Part shown: positions 1-5,581 of the stretch, piece after piece
How positions within the stretch are numbered: position 1 is the first letter of the stretch
Layout: each line of letters begins with the position of its first letter
Origin: Rhodococcus sp. IITR03
GTDB lineage: Bacteria > Actinomycetota > Actinomycetes > Mycobacteriales > Mycobacteriaceae
NCBI GenBank assembly: GCA_001017865.1
Contig: LATQ01000001.1
Location: forward strand, 2,932,913-2,939,963
DNA: 7,051 nt
Direction: 5' to 3'
Position numbers and translations under genes: made by a program
The notes under the pieces: generated by a model
Seen by the model: only the letters and a program-made list of their open reading frames with translations
The model's database searches: none
Told to the model about the DNA's origin: nothing

Positions 1-689
1 CGGTCCCGCTGGTTTGCACCTCGGGGGAACCGCGCCGCTGCCACCTATTTCGAGATCGCCGAGCGGCGGGTGCGGTTGCCACCGCGCCTCCCGCCGTTCC
101 CGGCACGTCCCCTTCCTCGGACGCCGCCCCTACCTCCGGCACTGCCCTTGCCTCCGGCACTGCCACTGCTCCCGCTGCGCGGACCACCCCGGTGCCGGAT
201 CGGCACGCACGTCGGCCCGCGTCGTGGTGCTCGACGAGGACGGCCGGTCCTGCTCCTGCGCGGACATGACCCCGCGGTGCCCGAGCGGCACTTCTGGTTC
301 ACGATCGGCGGCGCCGTCGAACCCGGCGAGGACCTGGCGACGGCCGCGCTCCGGGAGCTCGTCGAAGAGACCGGCCTGCGGGTCGAGCGCGACCTGCTGT
401 GCGGGCCGATGTGGCGGCGCGTGGCCGTCTTCCCGTTCAACGGTGAGGTCCTGCACTCGGAGGAGCTGTTCTTCGCGGTGCGAGTGCCGTCCTTCGAACC
501 CGCTGCGGACGGCTTCACCGATCTCGAGCGGAGCATGCGCCTCGAACATCGCTGGTTCGACGACGACGAACTGCAGGCGCTGGTGCGGTCCGGGAACCCG
601 GTCTACCCGAACGATCTGCCGAGCTCCTCGACGAGGCGCGGCAGGTCGCGACGCGGCGGCTCGAGCCGGAGATCCGCGCGATCCACTGA
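1..689 (+). CDS. Nudix hydrolase, 5' end outside window, frameshifted as sequenced
   Basis: Nudix enzymes hydrolyse nucleoside diphosphates linked to another group; the substrate here cannot be told. The Nudix box lies at 307-378 and fits GX5EX7REUXEEXGU: GGAVEPGE, then RELVEETGL. Before it come ARVVVLDEDGR and VLLLRGHDP, and after it a beta-rich stretch ending in LEHRWFDDDEL. No single frame covers the gene. Coding signal runs in frame 1 to about 70 (WFAPRGNRAAATYFEIAERR), frame 3 to about 205 (an Ala/Pro/Thr/Ser-rich linker), frame 2 to about 246, frame 1 to about 621, then frame 3 to the TGA at 687-689 (LLDEARQVATRRLEPEIRAIH). Each step fits loss of one base; 246-248 and 621/622 are clearest. 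The linker and upstream coding suggest a longer protein. From memory, M. tuberculosis Rv2609c at this spot is a Nudix protein with an N-terminal membrane part. The domain is certain; the N-terminal frames are inference. Confidence 0.87.
133..164 (+). repeat. 14-nt direct repeat in the Nudix gene linker
   Basis: CCTCCGGCACTGCC occurs at 133-146 and again, identical, at 151-164. The period is 18 nt, or six codons. In frame 3 it encodes two copies of a Thr/Ala-Ser-Gly-Thr-Ala unit inside a low-complexity Ala/Pro/Ser/Thr linker. It looks like slippage-type expansion of a flexible linker and not a regulatory element. Confidence 0.6.
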
Positions 690-732
690 ACTTTTGAACC
701 TTCCGGTCCGGCCGCGGGCGCCTTACGTGGAG

Positions 733-937: not shown

Positions 938-1840
938 GTGACCAGCCCCGACACCGCCCCCGTCACCGGCACCGCCCGCGTCAAGCGCGGCATGGCCGAG
1001 ATGCTCAAGGGCGGGGTGATCATGGACGTGGTGACCCCCGAGCAGGCGAAGATCGCCGAGGACGCCGGCGCGGTGGCGGTCATGGCCCTCGAACGCGTGC
1101 CCGCCGACATCCGCGCGCAGGGCGGCGTGTCGCGCATGAGCGATCCCGACATGATCGACGGCATCATCGAGGCCGTCTCGATCCCCGTCATGGCCAAGGC
1201 GCGCATCGGCCACTTCGTGGAGGCGCAGATCCTGCAGGCCCTCGGGGTCGACTACATCGACGAGTCGGAAGTGCTCACCCCTGCCGACTACGAGAACCAC
1301 ATCGACAAGTTCGCGTTCACCGTGCCGTTCGTGTGCGGCGCCACGAATCTCGGTGAGGCACTGCGCCGTATCAACGAGGGCGCGGCGATGATCCGCTCCA
1401 AGGGCGAGGCCGGCACCGGCGACGTCTCGAACGCCACGACCCACATGCGCCGGATCCGCCAGGAGATCCGCCGCCTGACCTCGCTTCCCGAGGACGAGCT
1501 CTACGTCGCCGCCAAGGAACTGCAGGCCCCCTACGACCTCGTCGTCGAGGTCGCCCGGGCCGGCAAGCTGCCCGTCACCCTCTTCACCGCCGGTGGCATC
1601 GCCACCCCCGCCGACGCGGCGATGATGATGCAGCTCGGCGCCGAGGGCGTGTTCGTCGGCTCCGGAATCTTCAAGTCGGGCAACCCCGCCCAGCGTGCGG
1701 CCGCAATCGTCAAGGCCACTACCTTCCACGACGATCCGGATGTGCTCGCGAAGGTCTCGCGGGGCCTCGGCGAGGCGATGGTCGGTATCAACGTCGACGA
1801 GATCCCGCAGCCGCACCGGCTCGCCGAACGCGGCTGGTGA
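938..1840 (+). CDS. pdxS: pyridoxal 5'-phosphate synthase, synthase subunit PdxS
   Basis: PdxS condenses ribose 5-phosphate, glyceraldehyde 3-phosphate and ammonia into PLP in the cytosol; ammonia comes from PdxT. The protein is 300 aa, a normal length, and forms a TIM barrel in this family. Key residues are visible: Asp30 in GGVIMDVV, Lys87 in VMAKARIGH and Lys155 in RSKGEAGTG, matching the lysines that carry substrate intermediates in Bacillus PdxS, plus the phosphate-binding [13 protein letters not shown] (216-228) and [11 protein letters not shown] (237-247). The GTG at 938 is preceded by GAGGAGG at 922-928, 9 nt away; an upstream in-frame ATG at 890 has no such site. This gene is intact, unlike most of its neighbours. 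Its stop is 5 nt from the stop of the opposing phosphatase gene. Its partner pdxT lies 3 kb downstream, beyond the opposite-strand cassette and tesB. Confidence 0.98.
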
Positions 1841-1845
1841 TCGTT

Positions 1846-3038
1846 CTACCGGGGTGCGTGCAGGGCGAGCAGGGCGACGTCGTCCTGCACGCCCCCGAGC
1901 GTCGCGAGCGCCTCGCGGACGGCTCCGACCGCTTCCGCCGCGCTCGTCGGCTTCGATGCGCGGACGTGGTCGAGGAGCCGGTCCTCCCCGAAGCGTTCGC
2001 GGGTCTCACCGGAGACGAGGGCCTCGGTCACCCCGTCGGTGTACAGCAGCAGCGTGTCGCCTGGTCGCAGCGCGAAGGTGTGCTCGACGAGCCGCGGCGT
2101 GGGCAGCATTCCGATCAGCTGTCCGCCGATCGTGGGGAGATAGTCGACGTTGCCGTTCGCGCGCACGAGGAGCGGCGGCGGATGCCACCCGAGGCGAGAC
2201 GGATGTCGACCCGTCCCGTGTCCGGATCGGGCGCGACCGTGCCGAAGGTGAGCGTGCAGAAGGGAGCTCGCGTCTCGCTGTCGCGTTCGTCGAGCAGGGT
2301 GGTGTTGAGCGTCCTGAGCGCCGCGGACGGGAACGTCTCGTAGACCGCCGCTGCACGCAGCGTGTAGCGGACGATCGACGTCACCGCCGCTGCGCGAGCA
2401 CCCTTTCCGCACACATCGCCGAGGAACAGCCCCCACGTGCCGGCGCGCGCGGGGAACAGGTCGTAGAAGTCGCCGCCGACCTCGTCGGGGGACGCGATGT
2501 GGTAGTACGCGTCGACCTCGAGTCCCGGTACCGCCGGCAGGCTCGGTGGAAGCAGGGTCGCCTGGAGCGTGGCGTTGATCGTGCGGAGCCGCTCACGCTC
2601 GAGTTCCGCCTCGCGACGGGCACGGAGCAGTTCCGTCTCGTAGGCGCGGCGCTCGCGGGCATCGAACAGCATCGTGCGGATCAGCGCGGGCCTGCCCTCG
2701 GCGTCCGGTTCGACCACCGAGGCGGCCAGGACCGGCAGCCGGGTCCGGTCGGCACGGACGAGTTCGAGGGCGATCCCGTTGATCTGGCCGTGCATGAGGA
2801 GGAGCGGCGCGTAGTGGGTCTCGTGGTAGATGCGGCCGCCCACGCTGAGCAGGTCCGAGAAGTACCGCTTGCCGACCAGTTCGTCGCTCGGGAACCCGAG
2901 CCAGTCCGTCAATGTCCGGTTCACCTCCGTGATCCGGCCGTCCGGGAGCGTCGTCAGGAATCCGCACGGCGCGTTGTCGTACAGCGCATCACCGTGTCGG
3001 ATACGGGGATCGAGGGTCCGATCGGTCGTCGCCGTCAC
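1846..3038 (-). CDS. rsbP: PAS domain + PP2C (SpoIIE-type) serine phosphatase, RsbP-like; one frameshift as sequenced
   Basis: This family dephosphorylates an anti-anti-sigma factor (RsbV type), releasing a stress sigma factor. With the frame restored it is 397 aa. Residues 18-125 are a PAS domain (DNAPCGFLTTLPDGRITEVN…WLGFPSDELVG); 128-160 are a charged helical linker, probably coiled coil; 165-395 are the phosphatase. All metal-binding acidic motifs are present: GGDFYD (Asp190, Asp193), GDVCGKG (Asp208), LYTDGVTEA (Asp335), QDDVALLAL (Asp386/387). One base is missing at about 2184-2186: RLASGG must join HPPPLLVRANG. The GTG start at 3038 overlaps the upstream hydrolase stop by 4 nt. PAS-PP2C next to an RsbQ-like hydrolase matches the B. 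subtilis energy-stress pair RsbQ–RsbP. No RsbV, RsbW or sigma gene is in view, so the target is unknown. Domain calls are secure; the RsbP role is inference from architecture and partner. Confidence 0.9.
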
Positions 3039-3854
3039 CCCGATCGGCGCGCGAACGCCGCGATCGCGGCTGCTGTCTCTTCGGGTGCGCTGAGCTGCGG
3101 TGCAGTGGCCGGTCGCGTTCAGGGTCACGAGTTCGCTCCCGGGGATCTGCTCGTGAACGAAGGCACCGACCTCGCGCGGAGCGATCGCATCGTGGGCGCA
3201 CTGGGCGACGAGCGTGGGCACCGACACCGCGGACAGATCGGAGCGGTTGTCGGCCAGGAAGGTCACCCGGGCGAAGACACGCGCCACCTCGGGATCCGTG
3301 CGGCAGAAGATCTCGCGAGTTCGTCGCCGAGCTCCGGCCGATCGGGATTGCCCATGATGACCGGCGCCATCGACTCGGTCCAGCCAGATAGTTCGCCTCG
3401 AGGGATTCGAGCAGCTCGTCGATGTCGTCGGCGCTGAACCCACCTCGGTAACCGGTGGCCGGATCGTCGATGAAGCACGGGGACGGTGCGAGCAGCACGA
3501 GACCGGAGAAGACCTCCGGGGCAGCCGCCGCCGCGAGGGCACCGATCGACGCGCTCACCGAGTGGCCGACGAAAAGCACCGGACCGAGATCCAGGCTCCG
3601 GCACAGGTCCACGACGTCCTCGGCGTAGGTCTCCATCCGCGAATAGCGCTGGGAGTCCCAGGCGGTCGCATCGGAACGCCCGGAGCCACGTGATCGAACC
3701 GCACCACCGTGAAGTCGGGTTCGAGCAGTGGGATCACCAGGCGCCACAGGTGCTGGTCGCAGCCGAAACCGTGCGCGAGGACGACCACCGGGCCCTCTCG
3801 GTTGCCCGTGATCGTCACGCTGTTCCTGCGCACCACATCGGTGACTTGTCGCAT
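3035..3854 (-). CDS. rsbQ: alpha/beta hydrolase of the RsbQ/KAI2/D14 family; several frameshifts as sequenced
   Basis: In B. subtilis RsbQ is needed for the phosphatase RsbP to respond to energy stress; plant relatives D14 and KAI2 are small-molecule receptors. With frames restored the protein is about 273 aa (B. subtilis RsbQ is 269). Alignment from memory is close throughout: LAHGFGCDQHLW, FDHVGSGRSD, YAEDVVDLC, FVGHSVSASIG, APSPCFIDDP, GNPDRPELGDEL, FCRTDPEVAR, HDAIAP, GHC. The triad is Ser99 (GHSVS), Asp223 (AHDAIAP) and His251 (GHC). Single bases are missing near 3685 (HVGSG), 3385 (YLGWT) and 3312 (ELARIFC). Near 3101 there is a net +1, or −2, before PQLSAPEETAAAIAAFARRSG. The ATG at 3854 has GGAGGGGG about 4 nt upstream on the − strand. 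The stop (3035-3037) overlaps the rsbP start, so translation is probably coupled. There is no signal peptide, consistent with a cytosolic signalling partner. Confidence 0.9.
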
Positions 3855-3995
3855 TGCACCCCCTCCGTTCTCCCGAGGGTGCCATATGCGCTACGCGATA
3901 GCATCCCGGTTTCCCCACCGCTTCCCGGGGACACGGCATTCGGTTCTCGTCCGTGCAGTTAGCCTTCTTGCGTACGGTGCACAGAAGGAGTTCCC
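3855..3995. promoter_or_regulatory. divergent intergenic region between rsbQ and tesB
   Basis: These 141 bp separate two divergent genes, so promoters for both should lie here. Ribosome sites are clear at both edges: GGAGGGGG before rsbQ on the − strand and AGAAGGAG (3983-3990) before tesB. For tesB the best -10-like hexamers are TAGCCT (3960-3965) and TACGGT (3973-3978), neither with a good -35. For rsbQ I see no convincing sigma-A hexamers, so an alternative sigma factor is possible but unproven. Confidence 0.35.
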
Positions 3996-4819
3996 ATGGC
4001 GAAGATCGAGCAGATCCTGGCGCTCGAACAGATCGAGAACGACATCTTCCGGGGGATAGCGACGGAGACGTTGCTGCCGCGGACGTTCGGTGGTCAGGTC
4101 GCCGGTCAGGCGCTCGTGTCGGCGGTCCGCACCGTCGATCCCGCATTCGGGGTCCACTCGCTGCACGGCTACTTCCTCCGCCCGGGGAACCCGACGATGC
4201 AGATCGTCTACCTCGTCGACCGGATCCGCGACGGCCGCTCCTTCTGCACCCGGCGCGTGACGGCCGTCCAGGACGGCAAGGCGATCTTCACCATGTCGGC
4301 GTCGTTCCACGTGCGCGACGAGGGGATCGAGCACCAGGACACGATGCCGCGGGTGCCGGCTCCGGAGGAACTGCCGACCCGGAGACCGTGGTCGACGACG
4401 CGACCCTGCTGTGGGCGAAGAAGGAATGGGCCGAATGGGACTTCCGGTTCGTTCCCCGCGACCGGATGGACTCGTCGAGCAGGATGGCTGCGCAGCAGCA
4501 GTTGTGGTTCAAGTCCCGCGAGATCCTCCCCGACGATCCGGTCTTCCACGTGTGCACGCTCGCGTACATGAGCGACATGACGTTGCTCGGCTCGGCGAGC
4601 GTCGGCCACGACGACGAAAGGACGCAGGGCGCATCCCTGGACCACGCGATGTGGTTCCTGCGCCCGTTCCGCGCCGACGACTGGCTGCTCTACGACCAGA
4701 CGTCACCCTCCGCCGGGCTGGGGCGCGCACTCACCCAGGGGCGGATCTTCGATCGCAACGGCAACATGGTCGCGGCGGTGGTGCAGGAAGGACTCACGCG
4801 GTACCTGCGCGAGTCCTGA
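3996..4819 (+). CDS. tesB: acyl-CoA thioesterase II (TesB family); one frameshift as sequenced
   Basis: TesB hydrolyses acyl-CoA to free acid and CoA in the cytosol. With the frame restored it is 274 aa, a double hot-dog protein of normal length. N-terminal hot-dog about 17-108 ([36 protein letters not shown]); C-terminal about 140-270 with [28 protein letters not shown] and VVQEGLTR, which supply the Asp/Thr/Gln active site (Asp216, Thr236, Gln264). One G is missing at 4376/4377: EELP runs into [13 protein letters not shown] only if CCGGAC is restored. AGAAGGAG at 3983-3990 sits 5 nt before the ATG. The gene lies 76 bp before pdxT and is probably cotranscribed with it; from memory a tesB gene holds the same place between pdxS and pdxT in M. 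tuberculosis (Rv2605c). The physiological substrate is unknown and a direct link to PLP synthesis is not evident. Confidence 0.95.
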
Positions 4820-4895: not shown

Positions 4896-5581
4896 GTGAC
4901 CATTTCTTCCCCCACGATCGGCGTCCTGGCATTGCAGGGCGACGTTCGCGAACACCGCAGCGCCCTCGAGGCGGCGGGCGCGCGGACGATCGCGGTGCGG
5001 CGCGAGCGCGAACTCGACGAGGTCGACGGCATCGTCCTCCCCGGTGGGGAGTCCACGACGGTCAGCCGCCTGTTGCGCGTGTTCGACCTGCTCGAGCCGT
5101 TGCGGACCCGATTGAAGGCGGGCCTGCCGCCTACGGTTCGTGCGCCGGCATGATCCTGCTCGCCTCCCGGGTGCTCGATACCACCGAGGACGCCGAACAC
5201 CTCGACGCCCTCGACATCGTGGTGCGCCGCAACGCCTTCGGCAGACAGGTCGACTCGTTCGAGACCGACCTGCCGATGACGGGTCTCGACGACGGGCCGG
5301 TGCGCGCGGTGTTCATCCGAGCCCCGTGGGTGGAGGAGGTCGGGCCCGACGTGGAGGTCCTGGCCACGGTTCCGGACGGGCCGGCAGCGGGCCGGGTGGT
5401 CGCGGTGCGTCAGGGCGGCGTGATCGCGACCTCCTTCCATCCCGAGATCACCGGCGACCACCGCGTGCACCGGCTGTTCGTGGAGACCGTGCGCTCGCGA
5501 CCCGACCTCGGGTGCGCCCGACGGCCTCGGCGACATGACGACACGGCCACCGTGCCGGTGGCTCATACCGGGAGCGAGTAG
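4896..5581 (+). CDS. pdxT: pyridoxal 5'-phosphate synthase, glutaminase subunit PdxT; one frameshift as sequenced
   Basis: PdxT is a class I glutamine amidotransferase that frees ammonia from glutamine and channels it to PdxS. With the frame restored it is 228 aa. Visible motifs: [13 protein letters not shown] (8-20), LPGGESTT (48-55, oxyanion region), [12 protein letters not shown] with the nucleophile Cys83, [13 protein letters not shown] (111-123), FIRAPWVE (140-147), and [11 protein letters not shown] with His182 and Glu184. One G is missing at 5129/5130, just before the Cys83 codon (5141-5143): GLP must join AYGSCAG by restoring GCCGGC. The GTG start follows a weak AGGCAGG (4884-4890) and gives the family-typical N-terminus; no better start is in frame. 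The family is usually near 190-200 aa, so about 28 C-terminal residues after [10 protein letters not shown] are extra, Arg-rich and not conserved as far as I know. They may be real or reflect another undetected shift. Confidence 0.94.

Follow-up and report, generated by a model that had tools for sequence, protein, structure and literature searches.

What might an RsbQ–RsbP pair act on in a genome where no partner-switching gene lies beside it? This question is raised by a 7,051-nucleotide stretch of Rhodococcus sp. IITR03 (the window), in which a minus-strand gene for an RsbQ-type alpha/beta hydrolase is followed by a gene for a PAS-PP2C phosphatase. The two genes, which we will call the cassette, lie between pdxS and tesB. 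A first-pass annotation of the sequence had described the pair, with the right coordinates and anatomy, and had left its output open. We examined the parts of the pair, their conservation, the overlap of the two genes, their distribution, and the content of the genomes that encode them. Although no partner gene is nearby, the genome content narrows the output to RsfB and SigF. With moderate confidence, we propose that RsbQ–RsbP is a second, energy-stress phosphatase input that acts on RsfB to free SigF.

Every one of the nine Rhodococcus genomes that have the cassette between pdxS and tesB also has RsfR, RsfB, and RsbW2. In Mycobacterium smegmatis, RsbW2 is the kinase for RsfB, RsbW1 is the anti-SigF factor, and RsfR is the phosphatase for RsfB (PMC7693655, PMC10950880; here and below, papers are cited for excerpts of their text). 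Seven of the nine genomes (G001, G112, G124, G085, G069, G099, and G052) were included in our searches for SpoIIE-type phosphatases and for sigma factors, each of which covered 14 genomes. Exactly one SigF-type sigma factor scored above the cutoff in each of the seven. Five of the seven (G124, G085, G069, G099, and G052) have two SpoIIE-type phosphatases; G001 has three, and G112 has four. The second phosphatase is a receiver-PP2C protein (RsfR) whose gene adjoins STAS and HATPase genes and, in G001, also genes for a CHASE3 kinase and a receiver protein. For G153 and G155, which were outside the SpoIIE, sigma, and HATPase family searches, we read RsfR, RsfB, RsbW2, UsfX, and SigF separately. 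UsfX and SigF were read at the DNA level in eight of the nine genomes, and the SigF of G112 comes from the sigma search only. Judging by its genes, G001 appears to have the full set of parts for an M. smegmatis-type SigF switch: SigF and UsfX, RsfB with its serine, RsbW2, RsfR, and the CHASE3 kinase.

To find STAS proteins, we used two Pfam families (E 0.01) in searches of 14 and 18 genomes. In each of the four small cassette genomes (G085, G069, G099, and G052), we found two STAS proteins that stand alone. Of the 12 other STAS hits in these genomes, eight are to sulfate permeases and three to glutaminase-STAS proteins; the last is weak and has no Pfam match. We placed the phosphosite using what we take to be the RsbV/SpoIIAA motif. 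The RsfB-type STAS protein has a serine at this presumed phosphosite in 9/9 genomes. The STAS protein at the SigF locus has Gly-Ala-Ala-Gly or Gly-Ala-Val-Gly there, with no serine, in all eight genomes in which it was read (G112 was left out). Because RsfB is the sole serine-bearing stand-alone STAS protein that we found in the four small genomes, it is the likely target of RsbP. (At L213, L219, and L223, Rhodococcus cassette genomes encode glutaminases that carry a STAS domain at the C terminus.)

We infer the substrate, signal, and sigma output of the Rhodococcus pair, and the proposed steps are as follows. A translationally coupled RsbQ–RsbP pair would have entered the gap between pdxS and tesB inside Rhodococcus, most likely once. 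By homology to the B. subtilis proteins, RsbQ would contact the PAS domain in a dimeric phosphatase in a triad-dependent manner and would supply or gate a small-molecule signal, and a linker helix would relay the signal from the PAS domain and switch on the PP2C domain. (These early steps are taken from work on B. subtilis; PMC3183031, PMC12143880.) Active RsbP would remove the phosphate from the serine of RsfB. Free RsfB might then displace the anti-sigma factor UsfX (RsbW1) from SigF, as in M. smegmatis. RsbQ–RsbP, responding to energy stress or to a small molecule, and the two-component phosphatase RsfR would be two inputs on the same RsfB.

A broader statement of this idea, which we offer tentatively and rate a little below even, is that the mycobacterial-type SigF switch gained a Bacillus-type second input. 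RsbQ–RsbP, without an RsbV of its own, would have been re-targeted to RsfB; RsfSR (respiration) and RsbQ–RsbP (a small-molecule or energy signal borne by the hydrolase) would converge on one serine; and the change of E72 of the PAS domain to glycine would mark the actinobacterial branch. If true, this would show how a sensor module is moved out of one partner switch and into another.

To identify the hydrolase, we compared the protein from R. gordoniae DSM 44689 (L001), the nearest named relative that we found, to solved structures. The top match was RsbQ from B. subtilis (1WOM; E 1.2e-82, 280 bits). This was followed by 3QVM (240 bits), while the plant receptors KAI2 and D14 scored at most 171 bits, and generic hydrolases or esterases scored at most 61 bits among the 60 structure matches listed. 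The copy from G155, a genome of the same genus, is 273 amino acids long and is identical to RsbQ at 123 of 264 aligned residues (47%). Its catalytic triad is Ser99, Asp223, and His251, just as the first-pass annotation had numbered it. These residues are invariant in 66/66 aligned rows, which are RsbQ, 64 relatives, and G155 entered twice.

That annotation had also called RsbQ the bacterial relative of the strigolactone and karrikin receptors. The fold and the triad are indeed shared, and the Rhodococcus hydrolase is 35–37% identical to KAI2 and D14, but it falls apart from them. In a tree of 29 hydrolases, the Rhodococcus copy is with RsbQ and the other bacterial members, and the three plant sequences form their own split with support of 100. 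We rejected the reading of the hydrolase as a strigolactone receptor on the basis of this split. (We found no other alpha/beta hydrolase in the studied loci that could serve as an outgroup, so the tree was rooted on the plant proteins.)

If the hydrolase were an ordinary metabolic esterase, then its phosphatase neighbor would be incidental. This scarcely seems credible. The hydrolase's Pfam matches are indeed to general alpha/beta hydrolase families only, and its best NCBIfam esterase is PcaDC, but the PcaDC score of 94.5 bits is far under the cutoff of 390, the match to RsbQ is at 280 bits, and the pairing with the phosphatase is conserved, with overlap of the start and stop codons. We rejected the esterase reading because of the low family scores, the match to RsbQ, and the conserved pairing. 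The first-pass annotation had named a grouping with metabolic esterases as an outcome that would count against the pair; no such grouping is indicated, as judged by score alone, since the tree contains no metabolic esterases.

The intact phosphatase has a PAS domain at about 17–126, a single helix at 128–161, and a PP2C domain, according to a model of the R. gordoniae protein with a mean confidence of 88.6. The solved folds nearest to this model are the PP2C domains of Rv1364c, RssB, SiaA, and SpoIIE, of which 3ke6 (Rv1364c) is the closest. The annotation's claim that all of the metal ligands are present is borne out: D190, D208, D335, D387, and D388 are invariant in 39/39 aligned phosphatases.

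For the PAS domain, we relied on published numbering and spacing (PMC3183031), not on an alignment to B. subtilis RsbP, and we checked ten positions, namely the nine residues studied in that paper and P62. Eight of the ten match the residue class given there: C10, L13, L48, Q53 (Arg), F55 (Tyr), Y59 (His), P62, and P86. At C56, Rhodococcus has a histidine, a minority residue that the excerpt of PMC3183031 gives for two sequences only. The PAS domain has the signature of the hydrolase-associated (Q-PAS) class, which is a cysteine in hPhG, a conserved F-alpha helix, and no DIT motif; no DIT motif was present at the end of the PAS domain in the Rhodococcus phosphatase. At the position of E72, where glutamate was the consensus of the 2011 set (we do not take it as defining), Rhodococcus has a glycine. 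Across 55 PAS homologs, this residue is glycine in 33, glutamate in 21, and serine in one. The glycine occurs only in actinobacterial copies, including those from Rhodococcus, Nocardia, Streptomyces, Frankia, and mycobacteria.

In a sample of 151 genomes of the family, drawn from a larger group, the hydrolase is present in 27, and the phosphatase is directly downstream in 27/27. The RsbQ–RsbP-type pairing that the annotation proposed is therefore well founded, given also that RsbQ is the best structural match and that the hydrolase groups with bacterial RsbQ. Taking the in-frame start codon nearest to the stop, the start of the PAS gene overlaps the stop codon of the hydrolase gene in 60 of 76 hydrolase-PAS pairs (55 by four bases and five by one). 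These pairs come from all loci, and some have outputs other than a phosphatase. At two loci, the hydrolase and PAS genes are in one frame, split by a stop codon.

A scan of named genomes found 58 related loci, in Streptomyces, Nocardia, Frankia, Amycolatopsis, Mycobacterium, relatives of Actinoplanes, and some proteobacteria, and a protein search found at least 7,999 candidates. The Q-PAS module has been known since 2011, when a paper that included cases from Streptomyces described it with a phosphatase, a kinase, or a cyclase as the output (PMC3183031). Given that description, the broad distribution, and a protein cluster from Rhodococcus ruber (P0029) that is already named RsbQ, the pair is of a known kind, and it is not the novelty outside Firmicutes that the annotation had suggested. 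Among the open-licence papers listed in our searches, we found no title on RsbQ–RsbP in Rhodococcus. What appears to be new is that the likely cellular target of the pair can be narrowed to one protein, RsfB.

Some Actinoplanes-type loci (L020 and L024–L029) encode PAS-PP2C proteins that belong to the same family but are not accompanied by a hydrolase gene in the loci examined. Three of these seven (L026, L027, and L028) have changed residues at the equivalents of F55 or Y59, two positions that in B. subtilis are important for the binding of RsbQ (PMC3183031). SigF-type sigma factor genes lie near three of the hydrolase-less loci (L025, L027, and L028).

We then looked at the neighborhoods of related pairs with home-made profiles (thresholds of 1e-4 and 1e-8). 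A same-strand gene for an RsbV-type STAS protein lies downstream of the phosphatase in 10/10 Streptomyces loci and in two of four Amycolatopsis loci, at 57–186 bp from match to match. In Saccharothrix (L023), a STAS gene follows a phosphatase copy that has no adjacent hydrolase. At six Actinoplanes-type loci (L031, L040, L042, L043, L044, and L047), an RsbQ-type hydrolase is followed by a fusion protein that runs from PAS to PP2C and HATPase, and then by a STAS gene. Because STAS genes adjoin the pair, or are the partners of fused systems, in some relatives, we consider STAS proteins to be the likely class of substrate. Outside the genus, three of the 20 family members with the cassette have a STAS gene of the RsfB family lying tail to tail with it. 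(The family was assigned by a search of 16 genomes, and RsfB has many paralogs in the genomes with the tail-to-tail gene.) In one of the 20, a gene for a SigF-type sigma factor adjoins the hydrolase gene. As separate observations, the six Actinoplanes-type loci are nearly complete partner switches in a few genes, and the fusion protein at L031 has two GAF domains.

Several results weigh against RsfB and SigF as the target and the output. As the annotation had reported, there are no partner genes nearby: across about 5 kb around the cassette at the Rhodococcus loci scanned, we found no STAS gene, no RsbW-type kinase gene, and no SigF-type gene. Nor does any of these three kinds of gene directly follow the pair in the loci of Nocardia, Frankia, Nonomuraea, Catellatospora, two Amycolatopsis, or the named mycobacteria. 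In eight regions (G099, G052, G154, G083, two from Nocardia, and two from Frankia), we also looked downstream of the cassette for the remains of a STAS gene and found none; the best E value, 0.19, is at the level of chance. Upstream of the hydrolase, none of nine orthologous regions has a SigF-type promoter, using what we presume to be the SigF motif, and the sole matches began inside tesB. SigF was kept in every cassette-free genome searched, so it does not require the cassette. We judged the phosphosite of the STAS proteins and the N-box of the kinases by eye, from the expected motifs, in an alignment that did not include RsfB from M. smegmatis. Finally, the glycine at E72 means that signaling by the PAS domain may differ from that in B. 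subtilis, where changing E72 of RsbP to alanine gives a null phenotype (PMC3183031).

The pair might instead be a functional switch with another target, either a phosphoprotein unrelated to STAS or, in the larger genomes, a private set of STAS and kinase proteins such as STAS3-HATPase3 of G001. We consider this unlikely, though worth keeping in view. The absence of an adjacent partner gene in Rhodococcus is consistent with it, and the larger cassette genomes G001, G112, and G155 do hold extra STAS or phosphatase genes that are possible targets there: G001 and G155 have extra canonical STAS proteins, and G112 has extra STAS hits. But in the four small cassette genomes, RsfB is the only candidate of its kind that we found, and the STAS genes that adjoin the pair in some relatives also point away from an unrelated target.

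It is somewhat less improbable, but still a minority view for us, that the effect on SigF is indirect or weak, with the pair as an accessory to RsfSR, or that the signal is not energy-related, for instance a specific ester or lactone metabolite that the hydrolase recognizes. This overlaps with the proposal that RsbQ–RsbP acts on RsfB and does not exclude it. The triad is kept in every aligned hydrolase, M. smegmatis senses respiration through RsfSR (PMC10950880), Rhodococcus has glycine instead of E72, and the signal for RsbQ–RsbP of B. subtilis was still unknown as of the 2011 paper (PMC3183031), all of which fit such a role, and nothing that we found speaks decisively against it. The setting in Rhodococcus is compact (two candidate phosphatases, one serine-bearing STAS protein, and one SigF-type sigma factor), so the question of the signal can be tested directly there, and the half of the genus that lacks the cassette is a natural control.

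The Rhodococcus pair can be compared with several known systems. Like RsbQ–RsbP of B. subtilis (PMC3183031), it has the same gene order, the RsbQ triad, an N-terminal PAS domain with most of the class signature, a helical linker, and a PP2C domain. It differs in having glycine for E72 and no sigma, rsbV, or rsbW gene nearby. Its substrate is probably different as well (RsfB), and the kinase (RsbW2) and the anti-sigma factor (UsfX) would be two distinct proteins. In the RsfSR-RsfB-RsbW2/RsbW1-SigF switch of M. smegmatis, the parts correspond to those of G001 (CHASE3 kinase, receiver-PP2C, serine STAS, HATPase, and UsfX-SigF), and cassette-bearing Rhodococcus adds the RsbQ–RsbP pair. The excerpt of PMC10950880 describes RsfR as the RsfB phosphatase and names RsbQ–RsbP for Bacillus. 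Fused switches of the Rv1364c type also have PAS and PP2C domains, but Rv1364c has kinase and STAS domains on the same chain (PMC7693655), and the Rhodococcus RsbP does not. Lastly, the Streptomyces units (L003–L005, L012–L017, and L051) encode hydrolases that are 64–75% identical to that of R. gordoniae, and they have their own STAS gene directly downstream, unlike Rhodococcus. Four of them (L003, L004, L005, and L013) are the closest relatives from outside the family of the Rhodococcus and Nocardia copies in a joint tree, and the other six are in a different branch.

How did the cassette come to lie between pdxS and tesB? Among 18 Rhodococcus genomes, ten have the hydrolase; it lies in the pdxS-tesB gap in nine and elsewhere in one (G154). 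In the nine cassette-free loci, pdxS and tesB are about 70–126 bp apart. Outside the genus, 20 genomes have the hydrolase, and by contig positions the cassette is at pdxS-tesB in 0/20. The annotation's placement of the cassette thus applies to half of the genus sample, and the alternative it had named, that the cassette is ancestral at this position to all relatives, is not what we see: the site is empty in nine of the 18, and copies from outside the genus lie elsewhere. Its claim that the cassette splits the two subunits of PLP (pyridoxal 5'-phosphate) synthase was overstated. Because tesB is between pdxS and pdxT in all nine cassette-free loci as well, the cassette was not the first to separate them.

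In a tree of five flanking genes, seven cassette genomes group together (support 100) and have a sister group of three genomes without the cassette (joint support 100). Two further cassette genomes group together (support 100) and fall, weakly (72), with four cassette-free genomes. The nine cassettes at this site form one clade, with support of 100 in the joint and phosphatase trees and 64 in the hydrolase tree. (L002, which is from the same genome as G085, was omitted from the cassette trees; stop symbols were converted to gaps in the alignments; and the hydrolase tree alone included three rows whose partners are not phosphatases.) Between the two groups, the cassette has diverged about as much as tesB has. 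Two independent insertions would be two events, and one insertion with two losses would be three. We nevertheless prefer the latter, a single insertion inside Rhodococcus, as the most likely history, because the copies at the site are each other's closest relatives and lie in the same gap. The two cassette clades also differ in what lies next to pdxS. At L112 (8273–8473) and L113 (8285–8482), which are in the clade with G099 and G052, an open reading frame of 66–67 amino acids, membrane-protein-like and without a Pfam match, lies between the phosphatase and pdxS; we found no match to it in the other loci compared. In the other clade, the stop codons of the phosphatase and pdxS are only about 5–20 bases apart.

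The layout of the window is given in the table. The genes on its plus strand are NUDIX, pdxS, tesB, pdxT, yebC, and ruvC.

Table. Positions in the 7,051-nucleotide window of the cassette and adjacent features.
Feature	Positions	Strand	Remarks
RsbQ-type alpha/beta hydrolase gene	3035..3854	-	start codon 3854; 273 aa in intact relative; window frames broken
RsbP-type phosphatase gene	1846..3038	-	PAS, 34-residue linker helix, and SpoIIE/PP2C; start 3038, stop 1846
Divergent hydrolase/tesB intergenic region	3855..3995	no strand	141 bp
pdxS, PLP synthase subunit	938..1840	+	convergent with the phosphatase gene
tesB, acyl-CoA thioesterase	3996..4819	+	frame broken in the window
pdxT, PLP synthase glutaminase subunit	4896..5581 (ends approximate)	+	frame broken in the window

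In the window, as in most of the related pairs, the start codon of the phosphatase gene overlaps the stop codon of the hydrolase gene. Small indels break the window's frames for the hydrolase, the phosphatase (398 amino acids in intact relatives), tesB, pdxT, and yebC, and the residues of the triad and the metal ligands are present but scattered across several frames. Could the cassette be a decaying pair of pseudogenes in this strain? Both of its genes are broken, as this would require, but the conserved neighbors tesB, pdxT, and yebC show breaks of the same kind. Furthermore, G155 is 99.3% identical to the entire window, with 21 gap columns, and there the frames are open for all seven genes compared from pdxS to ruvC (the hydrolase, the phosphatase, pdxS, tesB, pdxT, yebC, and ruvC). 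Because of this, we consider the indels to be confined to the record of the window; from the sequence, they look like sequencing errors. We rejected the pseudogene reading, which we regard as very improbable, on account of the breaks shared with the neighbors and the intact frames of G155. The NUDIX gene upstream of pdxS (window positions 1–690) also appears to be frame-broken when compared to the 350-amino-acid protein of R. gordoniae.

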